Shown here in pieces: positions 54,048 to 57,394 of a stretch of 61,363 nt of DNA (position 1 is its first letter; each line of letters starts with the position of its first letter). The stretch is from assembly GCA_014802045.1 (NCBI GenBank), contig JAAVDA010000002.1:1-61363 (forward strand), in the 5' to 3' direction. Under the pieces are notes generated by a model. It worked only from the letters and a program-made list of their open reading frames with translations, searched no databases and was not told the origin of the DNA. Origin of the DNA: Bacteroides sp. (GTDB lineage: Bacteria > Bacteroidota > Bacteroidia > Bacteroidales > Muribaculaceae). The position numbers and the translations under genes were made by a program.

Positions 54048-54086
54048 ATGGAAAAAACGACTATTGATATCGTAGTAATATGTTGA
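54048..54086 (+). CDS. possible 12-codon leader peptide overlapping the polyferredoxin start
   Basis: ATG at 54048 opens MEKTTIDIVVIC and stops at TGA 54084-54086, overlapping the polyferredoxin ATG (54080) by 7 nt. It begins right after the -7 box, so it would be nearly leaderless. It may couple translation of the downstream gene, or be chance; length gives no statistical support. Confidence 0.35.
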   Translation: MEKTTIDIVVIC

Positions 54087-55570
54087 AAAAAATTCGTGTG
54101 GTGCTCGCCATTATAAGTCTTGTGGCGCTCACACTCCTGTTTCTGGATTTCACAGGCACTGCTTCCGCACTTTGGGGATGGCTCGCCAAACTCCAGTTTA
54201 TGCCGGCCGTTCTTGCCTGCAATTTCGTGGCACTGATTATTCTGCTTGTGCTCACTCTCGTTTTTGGCCGTATATATTGTTCGGTGATTTGTCCACTCGG
54301 CATCATGCAAGATGTGGTCAACTTTATCCGAGGTCATGTGGGCAAGAAATCCAAGCGCAAAAACCGCTTCGCTTTCAAGCCCGAGCTCACCATCGTCAGA
54401 GCCCTCGTGCTCACCCTCTTCTGCATCTGTGTGATTTGCGGTTTCCTCACCATAGCTGCCCTCATTGAGCCCTACAGCGAGTATGGCCGCATAGTCTCTG
54501 CATTTCTCGCGCCGGTCTACGACTCTGCCAACAATCTTCTTGCCGATATGGCTGCCTCGCGCGATAGCTACACCTTCTATCATGTCGACCTGCCGGCAGT
54601 CTTCATCCCGGCTTTGATTCTCTCCGGTGTCACTCTGGTTGTAGTGGCTCTTTTCGCATGGTTCACTGGTCGCGGATATTGCAACACCATCTGCCCGGTG
54701 GGCACAATTCTCGGCTATCTCTCCAAATTCTCCCTGCTCAAGCCGGTCATCGACACCAACCTCTGCAACGGATGCCGCAAATGCGAGCGCAACTGCAAGG
54801 CTTCATGCATCAACGCCAAGACCCACTCCATTGACTATTCACGGTGTGTTGACTGCATGGACTGCGTGGAAAATTGCAGCACCGGAGCCATACGCTACAC
54901 CTGGCACCGCACATTCGCACCCCTCGCACCCTCTGCCACAGACAAATCGCGCCGCAAGTTCATGGCCTCCGGAGCCGTGATTGTCGGAGCGCTTGCAGCC
55001 AAGGCCGAAGACAAGCTCACCGATGGTGGATTTGCCGAAATCACCCCCAAGACAAAACCCTCCCGATCAGGCCGCATTGTTCCGCCCGGAGCTGTGAGTC
55101 TCGACAACCTCACATCCCGCTGCACCATGTGTCAGCTCTGCATCAGCGAGTGTCCCAACGGAGTGCTCCGTCCCTCCATGGATGCAGCCACATTCATGCA
55201 GCCCGAAGTGTCTTATGAGAACGGCTACTGCCGTCCGGAGTGCACCCGCTGCTCTTCCGTCTGCCCCGCCGGAGCCATACACCCCATTGACCGTGCCGAA
55301 AAATCGGCCATCCACATCGGCGCTGCTGCCGTCAACCTTGATCTCTGCCTCTCTGCCACCGCTCAGGCCAGCTGCGGCAAATGCTCCCGCAAATGTCCTG
55401 CCGGAGCCATCGAGATGGTGGCCATGGAGCCCGCCATTGAAGGCTCGCCACTGATGCCGGTGGTCAATGACGCTGCTTGCATAGGCTGTGGCGCATGCGA
55501 GAATCTCTGCCCCGTAAGCCCCGTGAGTGCAATAGTAGTTAACGGTTATGAAGTACACAGACATGGATAA
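54080..55570 (+). CDS. NapH-like membrane polyferredoxin with internal twin-arginine motif
   Basis: The product is 496 residues. Four N-terminal hydrophobic segments (about 6-24, 44-62, 105-128, 174-196) carry two CxxxCP motifs (Cys67/71 and Cys201/205), as in NapH/NosR-type quinol oxidases. Two 4Fe-4S motifs follow (CNGCRKCERNC 229-239, CVDCMDCVENC 256-266). Next come SRRKFM (290-295) and a fifth hydrophobic stretch. A C-terminal polyferredoxin domain (348-478: CTMCQLCISEC, CTRCSSVC, CGKCSRKC, CIGCGACENLC) completes it. The twin-arginine placement suggests Tat export of the last domain (inference). It overlaps the reductase gene by 23 nt. Confidence 0.88.
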   Translation: MLKKIRVVLAIISLVALTLLFLDFTGTASALWGWLAKLQFMPAVLACNFVALIILLVLTLVFGRIYCSVICPLGIMQDVVNFIRGHVGKKSKRKNRFAFKPELTIVRALVLTLFCICVICGFLTIAALIEPYSEYGRIVSAFLAPVYDSANNLLADMAASRDSYTFYHVDLPAVFIPALILSGVTLVVVALFAWFTGRGYCNTICPVGTILGYLSKFSLLKPVIDTNLCNGCRKCERNCKASCINAKTHSIDYSRCVDCMDCVENCSTGAIRYTWHRTFAPLAPSATDKSRRKFMASGAVIVGALAAKAEDKLTDGGFAEITPKTKPSRSGRIVPPGAVSLDNLTSRCTMCQLCISECPNGVLRPSMDAATFMQPEVSYENGYCRPECTRCSSVCPAGAIHPIDRAEKSAIHIGAAAVNLDLCLSATAQASCGKCSRKCPAGAIEMVAMEPAIEGSPLMPVVNDAACIGCGACENLCPVSPVSAIVVNGYEVHRHG

Positions 55571-56972
55571 AAACAGCCCGAAGCGCCTCGGCAGGCGCAG
55601 CTTCCTTAAATATATAGGTGCCGGAGCGGCTCTGGCTGCTGCCGGATGCTCATCGCGCCCCTCCTCATCTTCCGCCCAGTCATCCGGCTCCTCCATTGCA
55701 GGCACCGGAGAGATGACCTATCGCATCAACCCCACCACCGGCGACACTGTCTCCATCCTCGGCTACGGTTGCATGCGCCTCCCGACCAAGACCGTCGGCT
55801 CCGGATCAGACTCCGTGACAGAAATCGATCAGGAGGCTGTAAACCGTTCCGTAGACCACGCTCTTGAGCATGGTGTGAACTACTTCGACACATCTCCCGC
55901 CTATTGTCAGGGCCGAAGCGAGGGAGCTATGGGCCGGGCGCTCAGCCGCCACCCGCGCCACAGCTATTTCATAGCCACCAAGCTCTCCAACTTCGCCGAA
56001 AGCACATGGTCCCGCGAAAAATCCATAGCCATGTATCGCAACTCCTTCAAGGAGCTGCAGACAGACTATCTCGACTATATGCTCCTTCACGGTATTGGTA
56101 TGGGAGGCATGGATTCTTTCAACGGCCGATATGTCGACAATGGTATTCTCGACTTCCTCGTTGCCGAACGTGAGGCCGGGCGCATCCGCAACCTCGGCTT
56201 CTCATATCATGGCGACATCGCTGTGTTCGACCACCTCCTCAAGCTCCACGACGAAGGCAAATATAAATGGGACTTCGTGCAGATACAGCTCAACTACGTA
56301 GACTGGCACCATGCCAAGGAGGTGAATCCGCGCAACACCGACGCCGAATATCTTTACGGCGAACTCAGCAAGCGCAGCATCCCGGCCGTCATCATGGAGC
56401 CGCTGCTGGGTGGCAGGCTCGCCTCGGTAAACAATCATATCGCCGGATCCATGAAGCAGCGTCGCCCCGACGACAGCATCGCCTCATGGGCGTTCCGCTT
56501 CGCCGGATCGCCTGAAGGTGTGCTCACAGTGCTCAGCGGCATGACCTATATGGAGCACCTCAAAGACAATCTCCGCACATTCTCCCCCCTGGAGCCTCTC
56601 GACGATTCGGAGCTTGCCTTCCTTGAGCAGACCGCACAGGAAATCCTCTCATATCCCACCGTAGCCTGCAACGACTGCAAATACTGTATGCCATGCCCCT
56701 ATGGCATCGACATCCCCGGAGTGCTTCTTCACTATAATAAATGTGTAAACGAAGGCAACGTCCCCGCCGGCAATCAGGATCCCCGCTACGCCGAAGCCCG
56801 CAAGGCTTTCCTTGTTGGCTATGACCGCTCCGTGCCCCGTCTGCGTCAGGCTGCCCGCTGCATAGCCTGCGGCGAGTGCAAGCCTCACTGCCCGCAGGGC
56901 ATTGATATCCCCGCTCAGTTGGCCCGGATAGACGCCTTTGTCGAACAGCTCAAGCAGAACTCCGACGCATGA
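55548..56972 (+). CDS. exported aldo/keto reductase with Tat lipoprotein signal and C-terminal iron-sulfur motifs
   Basis: The product is 474 residues. GRRSFL (15-20), a hydrophobic stretch and AAGC (31-34) form a Tat signal with lipobox, followed by a Ser-rich linker. The AKR barrel spans about 55-350, with the tetrad Asp114, Tyr119, Lys145 and His181. The C-terminal extension has CNDCKYCMPCPYGIDIP (374-390) and CIACGECKPHCPQGIDIP (438-455), which are 4Fe-4S-type motifs. AKRs normally use cytosolic NADPH; a periplasmic lipoprotein form would need another electron source, plausibly the upstream polyferredoxin. Substrate unknown. It overlaps both neighbours. Confidence 0.88.
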   Translation: MKYTDMDKNSPKRLGRRSFLKYIGAGAALAAAGCSSRPSSSSAQSSGSSIAGTGEMTYRINPTTGDTVSILGYGCMRLPTKTVGSGSDSVTEIDQEAVNRSVDHALEHGVNYFDTSPAYCQGRSEGAMGRALSRHPRHSYFIATKLSNFAESTWSREKSIAMYRNSFKELQTDYLDYMLLHGIGMGGMDSFNGRYVDNGILDFLVAEREAGRIRNLGFSYHGDIAVFDHLLKLHDEGKYKWDFVQIQLNYVDWHHAKEVNPRNTDAEYLYGELSKRSIPAVIMEPLLGGRLASVNNHIAGSMKQRRPDDSIASWAFRFAGSPEGVLTVLSGMTYMEHLKDNLRTFSPLEPLDDSELAFLEQTAQEILSYPTVACNDCKYCMPCPYGIDIPGVLLHYNKCVNEGNVPAGNQDPRYAEARKAFLVGYDRSVPRLRQAARCIACGECKPHCPQGIDIPAQLARIDAFVEQLKQNSDA

Positions 56973-57394
56973 CCATCGCGCAGCTACGTGATTCTGCAGC
57001 CTACTCTCTTGTGGTGGCCACAGCCTCCGGACAGATTCTCACCTTCAAGGGGAGGGGAGTGTCAGACCTCTACGACCTCTACACCACCCGACCCTCCGTT
57101 CTTGCCCAAGCCGATGTGGCCGACAAAGTGGTCGGTGCCGGAGCCGCAGTCCTTCTGGCTCTCGGCAGGGTAAGGAGCGTAGACGCCCCGGTGATAAGCT
57201 CCGATGCCCTTGCCATACTCCGCCGCGAAGCCATCCGGGTGACAGGATTTGAGGAGGTACCCGCCATCATCAACCGCACCGCCACCGGCCGCTGCCCGCT
57301 CGAAACCCTCATTGCCTCGACCGGAATAAACTCCGACCTTCCACATCTCCTCCCCGTCATCACAAGATTTGTGGAGTCCATGCGCCGGAAGTAG
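56969..57394 (+). CDS. DUF1893 domain protein
   Basis: A 141-residue protein that I recognise as DUF1893, whose known structure (Thermotoga TM1506) has a deaminase-like fold. GAGAAVLLALGRVRSVDAPVIS and RCPLETLIA are visible, but no complete HAE/PCxxC zinc site is, so catalytic activity is uncertain. No signal peptide, hence cytoplasmic. It overlaps the reductase stop by 4 nt (ATGA), which ties it to the iron-sulfur operon. Confidence 0.85.
   Translation: MTIAQLRDSAAYSLVVATASGQILTFKGRGVSDLYDLYTTRPSVLAQADVADKVVGAGAAVLLALGRVRSVDAPVISSDALAILRREAIRVTGFEEVPAIINRTATGRCPLETLIASTGINSDLPHLLPVITRFVESMRRK

Follow-up and report, generated by a model that had tools for sequence, protein, structure and literature searches.

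Aldo-keto reductases are normally cytoplasmic enzymes that use NAD(P)H, which raises the question of what such an enzyme could do outside the cytoplasm and how it would exchange electrons there. The locus considered here poses this question directly. It lies in a 61,363-nucleotide stretch of contig JAAVDA010000002.1 (assembly GCA_014802045.1, Bacteroides sp., family Muribaculaceae), the whole of which we refer to as the window. Three overlapping genes, all on the plus strand, encode a 496-aa polyferredoxin in which NapH- and NapG-like parts are fused (PFD; P0001, 54080..55570), a 474-aa aldo-keto reductase with a twin-arginine translocation (Tat) signal, a lipobox and a ferredoxin-like tail (AKR; P0002, 55548..56972) and a 141-aa DUF1893 protein (P0003, 56969..57394), with overlaps of 23 nt between PFD and AKR and of 4 nt between AKR and DUF1893. 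An initial annotation, made from the letters of the window alone, had proposed that PFD carries electrons across the membrane to an exported, NADPH-free AKR; its positions and overlaps, and the internal motif SRRKFM at S290-R291-R292-K293-F294-M295, were recovered when we re-read the sequence. We consider it probable (roughly 0.72) that PFD and AKR belong, as two subunits, to a single redox complex of the inner membrane with an electron path to the exported AKR. The architecture, the signals, the fidelity of the partners and the linkage to Tat are established by sequence and genome comparison.

PFD and AKR occur in the same Bacteroidales genomes

To describe the distribution of the pair, we used a sample of 247 genomes of the order Bacteroidales, in which AKR matches of at least 500 bits and PFD matches of at least 470 bits were counted as strong. 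A strong AKR was found in 41 genomes, 40 of which also carried a strong PFD, while in the 41st (G037) the PFD was split over two contig ends; no genome with a strong PFD and without AKR was found among the 247. The two sets also agreed by eye in 61 relatives (27 and 27, with the G037 PFD and the G012 AKR each in two pieces). Moreover, 41 of 44 AKR-PFD pairs lay within 150 nt (39 as PFD then AKR, 2 reversed) and the other three at 1.0–2.7 kb, so that the proposed functional pairing is borne out by both shared occurrence and proximity. Three further AKR copies had no adjacent PFD (G054:C1, G450:C16 and G358:C46; loci L081, L082 and L085), and in G054 (L082) both genes were present on separate contigs. 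Divergent pairs were seen in G450:C48 and G312:C26, with 38–42% identity for PFD and AKR each. In a phylum-wide draw, AKR was found in only 1 of 247 genomes, that of the window itself, so the pairing appears centred on Bacteroidales as far as sampled.

PFD proteins that score lower have another partner. These matches were sampled in part, and the sample comprised two AKR-paired cases (L087, L088) and 22 proteins with 34–42% identity, each of the 22 beside a DUF362 gene (adjacent by BLAST, two verified by Pfam; loci L044–L047 and L090–L107). In the four loci where the start of DUF362 was read (L044–L047), it begins with twin arginines in every case. A tree built from 96 PFDs separates the 69 paired with AKR from the 22 paired with DUF362 at one branch, with a Shimodaira–Hasegawa-like approximate likelihood-ratio test support (SH-aLRT) of 99; the partner label changes once, against means of 23.7 and 19.9 changes when the two labels were shuffled. 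The sister PFDs and DUF362 apparently form a separate exported redox pair. The remaining five PFDs, with no partner within 1.5 kb, were nearest to AKR-paired rows or to one another. AKR lies 1.6 and 2.7 kb from PFD in L076 and L083, respectively, and begins at the contig end in L008; L038 belongs to G054, and in L016 no AKR was found in 11 kb.

PFD carries an internal Tat signal ahead of its NapG-like half

Hydrophobicity marks four segments in the NapH-like half of PFD (peaks at residues 7–25, 44–62, 111–129 and 174–192; 54098..54667). Two CxxxCP loops can be read from the sequence, the first of which (C67, C71, P72; 54278..54295) is also covered by PF12801 and the second of which (C201, C205, P206) lies at 54680..54697. 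Together with a NapH profile match that is best over residues 185–275, these features agree with the four-helix NapH-like protein described before. Counts of lysine plus arginine are 3, 9 and 15 for the presumed inner loops and 1 and 2 for the presumed outer ones. The hydrophobic peaks and these charges predict an N-in topology, in which both CxxxCP loops and the two 4Fe-4S motifs that follow (C229–C239 and C256–C266; 54764..54877, from Pfam and the alignment) would face the cytoplasm. The NapG profile covers residues 286–487, including four further 4Fe-4S motifs (C348–C358, C384–C395, C423–C439 and C467–C477; 55121..55510, from Pfam and this profile), and since the match starts at profile position 6, its onset falls near the expected place of NapG's own Tat signal. 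All of these matches are below the curated cut-offs (NapH, 65 versus 213.05 and 64 versus 234 bits; NapG, 61 versus 269 bits).

Conservation of the cysteines is nearly complete. After removal of open reading frames (ORFs) shorter than 460 aa or containing X, which reduced the set from 98 to 96, 28 tabulated loop and cluster cysteines were invariant in 96/96 PFD rows, among them all 16 of the four outer motifs, and a 29th, C243, was present in 89/96. At the junction between the two halves, the internal motif SRRKFM (residues 290–295; 54947..54964) has a strict twin arginine (RR) in 66 of the 69 AKR-paired PFDs. The possibility that the internal RR is a chance occurrence was ruled out by this retention and by the invariance of the cysteines. 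The motif is followed by a short segment reaching A309, a possible signal-peptidase site (54959..55006, from the alignment), with about 14 uncharged residues and a Kyte-Doolittle peak of 0.88 compared to 2.52–2.95 for helices 1–4. Positive charge past the segment is common, with K308 in 42/69 and K312 in 54/69 AKR-paired PFDs. The internal Tat signal that had been proposed is therefore upheld by the retained RR and the weak segment behind it. The fifth hydrophobic stretch exists as claimed; being short and weak, it resembles a Tat signal and not an ordinary helix.

Two smaller alignments (A1 and A2) contained 13 AKRs and 14 PFDs, respectively, plus the proteins of the window. A2 does not include the PFD at L014:4965-6488, whose reading frame is broken near residue 239 by a stop, giving two ORFs; the AKR next to it is intact, and the break reflects either a pseudogene or an assembly error. 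The genome of the window also contains a second NapH-like stretch (G000:C21:60992-61726), with 39% identity over residues 27–279 and no NapG match; many congeners have short matches of this kind.

AKR is of an exported type with an altered nucleotide site

AKR begins with the twin-arginine motif GRRSFL (residues 15–20; 55590..55607) and a lipobox-like site, AAAGC34 (55635..55649), followed by an AKR barrel (55716..56645) with the tetrad D114, Y119, K145 and H181, which was recognized by PF00248 (115.9 bits; cut-off 24), the alignment, the structural model and a fold search. Its tail holds two 4Fe-4S motifs (C374–C383 and C438–C448; 56667..56891), seen in the sequence, by Pfam and in the alignment. 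The Tat-signal profile TIGR01409 matched above its cut-off (18.7 versus 16.7 bits). For the comparison of exported-type AKRs, ORFs shorter than 380 aa or containing X were removed (76 to 74), and the resulting 75 rows represent 74 different proteins, with that of the window counted twice. R16 and the tetrad were present in 75/75 rows, R17 in 73/75 (lysine in the other two) and C34 in 71/75, and each of the eight main cysteines of the iron-sulfur (Fe-S) tail was retained in 74 or 75. The predicted signal and lipobox thus point to a Tat-exported lipoprotein, which fits the exported-type Fe-S AKR with an intact tetrad that the initial annotation had described. In addition, a distant Fe-S AKR with about 34% identity (L109, G039:C20) has an RR start of its own, so export in this branch may have arisen more than once.

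Does such an enzyme still bind a nicotinamide nucleotide? The residues usual for the nucleotide site are largely kept in the exported AKRs (S219 in 75/75, Q247 in 71/75 and N341 in 75/75). Two other positions differ from nine distant Fe-S AKRs, eight of which have no signal: position 337 is His in 75/75 exported AKRs and Gln in 8/9 distant ones, and position 287 is Leu in 71/75 and Arg or Lys in 8/9. As these two positions are changed while S219, Q247 and N341 stay, the site is, on sequence grounds, altered and not erased. NADPH-free working, which the initial annotation had inferred, is therefore only a possibility. In an alignment with two plant L-galactose dehydrogenases, the stretch GM-x4-H-x3-N of AKR falls opposite GM-x4-Q-x3-N. 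We dropped the missing ‘SN’ motif as a sign of lost NAD(P)H binding, since these plant enzymes also have no SN in the same alignment. The AKR model was good over much of residues 56–250 and weak in the Fe-S tail; over the whole model, the mean predicted local distance difference test score (pLDDT) was 65.5. By profile and fold, the nearest solved structures were L-galactose dehydrogenases, with Z-scores up to 24.8 and many other AKRs only 1–2 Z apart.

Tat genes are present and, in some genomes, near AKR

If both proteins are Tat clients, a Tat system should be encoded in the same genome, and its absence had been named beforehand as an observation that would speak against the proposal. We found TatC in the genome of the window, with a TatA-like ORF (by eye) directly before it. 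TatC was found in 209/247 order genomes and, by eye, in 41/41 AKR genomes (p ~5e-4, kinship ignored). The AKR gene has TatC and TatA in its vicinity in 10 of these 41 genomes, or in 11 if G422 is counted, in which both Tat genes are on a contig that starts with the C-terminal part of AKR (L089); TatA alone lies near AKR in four more, in one of them on the opposite strand (L059). Proximity was counted by BLAST on the fetched loci, which are short for some genomes, and in G475 the TatC gene is about 6 kb from AKR and may be the ordinary copy. Outside the 41, G018 (L032) has the order PFD-AKR-DUF1893-ECF-S-like-TatA-TatC on a single strand, in which ECF-S-like denotes a protein resembling the S components of energy-coupling factor (ECF) transporters, and L090 has DUF362-PFD-TatA-TatC. 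At the thresholds used, TatC, PFD and AKR were all not found in G410 of genus g25 and G416 of genus g155, while their congeners (G057, and G310 and G500, respectively) have all three. The Tat genes near the pair are the strongest genomic sign that it is a Tat client. The genes for TatA and TatC in the same cluster had not been part of the initial annotation, nor had the DUF362 sister branch, the ECF-S-like protein and a possible cleavage that frees the C-terminal half of PFD.

DUF1893 follows Fe-S AKRs and not PFD

The third gene encodes a TM1506-like protein without an export signal by eye, matched by PF08973 (111.2 bits; cut-off 27) and by structure 1vk9 (E 6.7e-5). The three-gene set is flanked by what we take to be, from their translations, a UPF0301/YqgE-like gene on the opposite strand and lepA. 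DUF1893 had been described as coupled to the operon. The link itself stands, given that 24 of the 27 order genomes with DUF1893 are among the 41 AKR genomes (Fisher 2.6e-19, uncorrected), with DUF1893 on an AKR contig in 18 and on another contig only in 6 (by eye). An essential role does not follow, and DUF1893 as a fixed partner was ruled out, as it was found in only 24/41 AKR genomes and not found in the other 17. In a sample drawn from the phylum to which the Acetobacterium genome behind L017 belongs, 52 of 299 genomes had a DUF1893 match (51 above the cut-off), and in 3 of 30 DUF1893 loci from this sample (L131, L132 and L135; flanks to ~1.5 kb) the gene adjoins an Fe-S AKR of the signal-less type. 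In G477, where no PFD reached the threshold used, DUF1893 lies on the same strand as a distant Fe-S AKR and an ECF-S-like gene. These cases connect DUF1893 with the Fe-S AKR, not with PFD. Its TM1506 assignment hints that it may handle nucleotides, the superfamily being called ADP-ribosylating in a review (PMC8946771).

The ECF-S-like protein mentioned above is a membrane protein of about 172 aa encoded near DUF1893, in some genomes between DUF1893 and TatA-TatC (L032:1100-7306; also L028, L029, L031, L042, L050, L055, L067 and L069). Its gene was found in 27/247 order genomes, 19 of them with AKR, and was not found at the threshold used in the genome of the window, which is 75.7% complete. 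Four Bacteroidales proteins gave 15.3, 23.2, 17.7 bits and no match with PF12822 (cut-off 30.7), and L143 from the Acetobacterium-phylum sample gave 50.0 bits.

A putative electron path to an exported AKR and its alternatives

From these observations we infer the location of the proteins, the formation of a complex and the electron path. Sec would insert the NapH-like half of PFD into the inner membrane, after which the internal Tat signal would move the folded, cluster-loaded NapG-like half into the periplasm. AKR would receive its clusters in the cytoplasm and be exported folded by Tat, and a lipid anchor would hold it beside PFD. Given the paired signals, the occurrence in the same genomes and the linkage to Tat, a periplasmic location of AKR and of the C-terminal half of PFD is very likely. 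Electrons could then pass in either direction along the periplasmic clusters and the AKR cluster pair; the inner end of this path would most likely be the menaquinone pool, by analogy with NapGH, or else the clusters on the cytoplasmic side, and at its outer end AKR would interconvert carbonyl and hydroxyl groups outside the cytoplasm. DUF1893 would remain in the cytoplasm and probably serve the Fe-S AKR before its export.

Several points weigh against this proposal. Three AKR-paired PFDs have no strict RR (one KR, two RK). The predicted PFD structure is poor (mean pLDDT 50), so that the geometry of the wire is not readable from that model, and the AKR model is weak in its Fe-S part, with blocks of pLDDT 36–61. 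The co-occurrence counts take no account of shared descent. TatC is kept while AKR is missing in G341 (compared to G436 and G515), G316 (G422), G418 (G312) and G039 (G399), so the Tat system is retained independently of AKR, and TatC was not found in two genomes with lower-scoring PFDs (G334 and G375). In addition, AKR retains Q247 and N341 of the nucleotide site. Finally, ordinary carbonyls have potentials of about -190 mV, for which menaquinol at about -74 mV is a weak donor; this would call for a substrate that is a stronger acceptor, for a cytoplasmic low-potential donor acting through the inner clusters, or for inward flow.

This last point makes inward flow a serious rival as to direction: the exported AKR could oxidize an alcohol, a polyol or an aldose as a dehydrogenase and pass the electrons through its clusters and PFD into menaquinone, to which we give somewhat less than even odds. 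By analogy with NapGH, in which electrons leave menaquinol, outward flow and thus a reductase appears only slightly more likely than the inward direction. The cofactor is a separate matter. AKR could work without nicotinamide nucleotide, in which case its own 4Fe-4S pair, wired via PFD to the respiratory chain, would replace NAD(P)H as the source or sink of hydride equivalents, perhaps by way of a special small cofactor, loaded before Tat export and handled by DUF1893 (and by the ECF-S-like protein where present); we regard this as tentative and rather unlikely. A similarly doubtful option is that AKR is exported with tightly bound NAD(P), recycled by the clusters or by a second substrate, as glucose-fructose oxidoreductase (GFOR) of Zymomonas is exported with tightly bound NAD(P). 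It is unusual for 4Fe-4S clusters and nicotinamide to exchange single electrons directly, and the changes at 287 and 337 have altered the nucleotide side, although the retained S219, Q247 and N341 and the alignment with plant L-galactose dehydrogenases speak for a bound nucleotide, as does the ADP-ribosylating, that is NAD-handling, assignment of the DUF1893 superfamily (PMC8946771).

The remaining alternatives concern the fate of the proteins. The internal Tat signal might be cut after A309, which would release the NapG-like half as a free periplasmic polyferredoxin and leave a set of NapH, NapG and AKR. A309 is present in 62/69 and Q or E at 310 in 50/69 AKR-paired PFDs, after a short hydrophobic run and ahead of the frequent K312 noted above. 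However, a looser A-x-A pattern fits 91/96 PFD rows and is not discriminating, Rieske-type Tat anchors remain uncut according to PMC5449189, and our counts of the run length behind RR are blurred as the motif search sometimes took an earlier RK or KR; we consider cleavage somewhat less likely than not. That the two genes merely share an operon, with AKR working on NAD(P)H in the cytoplasm and its RR start incidental, would be in keeping with the existence of signal-less Fe-S AKRs (8/9 distant rows). We consider this very improbable given the retention of R17 and of the lipobox cysteine, the shared 41 genomes and the TatC genes close by in 11 of them.

If the proposed PFD-AKR complex exists, Bacteroidales, several records of which are from animal guts according to their titles, would have a redox step, linked to quinones, that acts on carbonyls or sugars outside the cytoplasm. 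It would also add a client to the Bacteroidales Tat system, adjoining the Tat genes in some genomes, and place DUF1893 in a biochemical context. The gene pair suggests an undescribed type of respiratory enzyme. Should the nucleotide-free reading hold, this would be a respiratory aldo-keto reductase and represent a new class of terminal oxidoreductases that use no Mo, heme or flavin. As a sister branch of PFD stands beside DUF362, one type of wire may feed several periplasmic enzymes, and the PFD module may be general.

Comparison with known systems

Both halves of PFD match profiles of the NapGH quinol dehydrogenase of periplasmic nitrate reduction; unlike NapGH, they are fused, fall below the NapH and NapG cut-offs and neighbour an AKR. 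The AKR of the window shares its barrel, tetrad and two 4Fe-4S motifs with other Fe-S aldo-keto reductases (COG1453 type) and differs from them by its Tat signal and lipobox and at positions 287 and 337. Its closest solved relatives by profile and fold, the L-galactose dehydrogenases (8usu, 7smi and 9w6y), are NAD(P) complexes with chains of 307–327 residues, too short for the Fe-S tail. GFOR shares Tat export with bound NADP, a likeness that is functional only and implies no sequence relation. The same holds for MsrPQ, in which, according to PMC5449189, a membrane subunit of the respiratory chain works with a periplasmic enzyme exported by Tat; here, too, no sequence relation is claimed.

The closest precedent is the dual Sec/Tat polyferredoxin family. 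Tooke et al. 2017 (PMC5449189) described five-segment polyferredoxins with a twin arginine ahead of segment five, demonstrated Tat-dependent export of reporters for the MLMS-1 polyferredoxin (Q1NSB0) and called it a NapH-NapG fusion. These proteins share with PFD a NapH-type membrane part, cytoplasmic 4Fe-4S motifs, RR ahead of a fifth segment that is weakly hydrophobic and followed by positive charge, and four outer 4Fe-4S motifs. Given these features, PFD appears to be a new member of the described family and not a new kind of protein. The Rieske proteins to which its internal signal had been likened are thus a more distant analogy than the MLMS-1 type, and the statement that no described pathway of this form was known no longer applies to the polyferredoxin; for a pair of PFD and exported AKR, no description was found in the open-licence papers searched. 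In the passages of Tooke et al. on the family, no partner enzyme is discussed, whereas PFD pairs with an exported AKR and its sister branch with DUF362. What is already known, then, is the dual Sec/Tat NapH-NapG fusion; what appears to be new, as far as sequence comparison can tell, is its pairing with an exported AKR.

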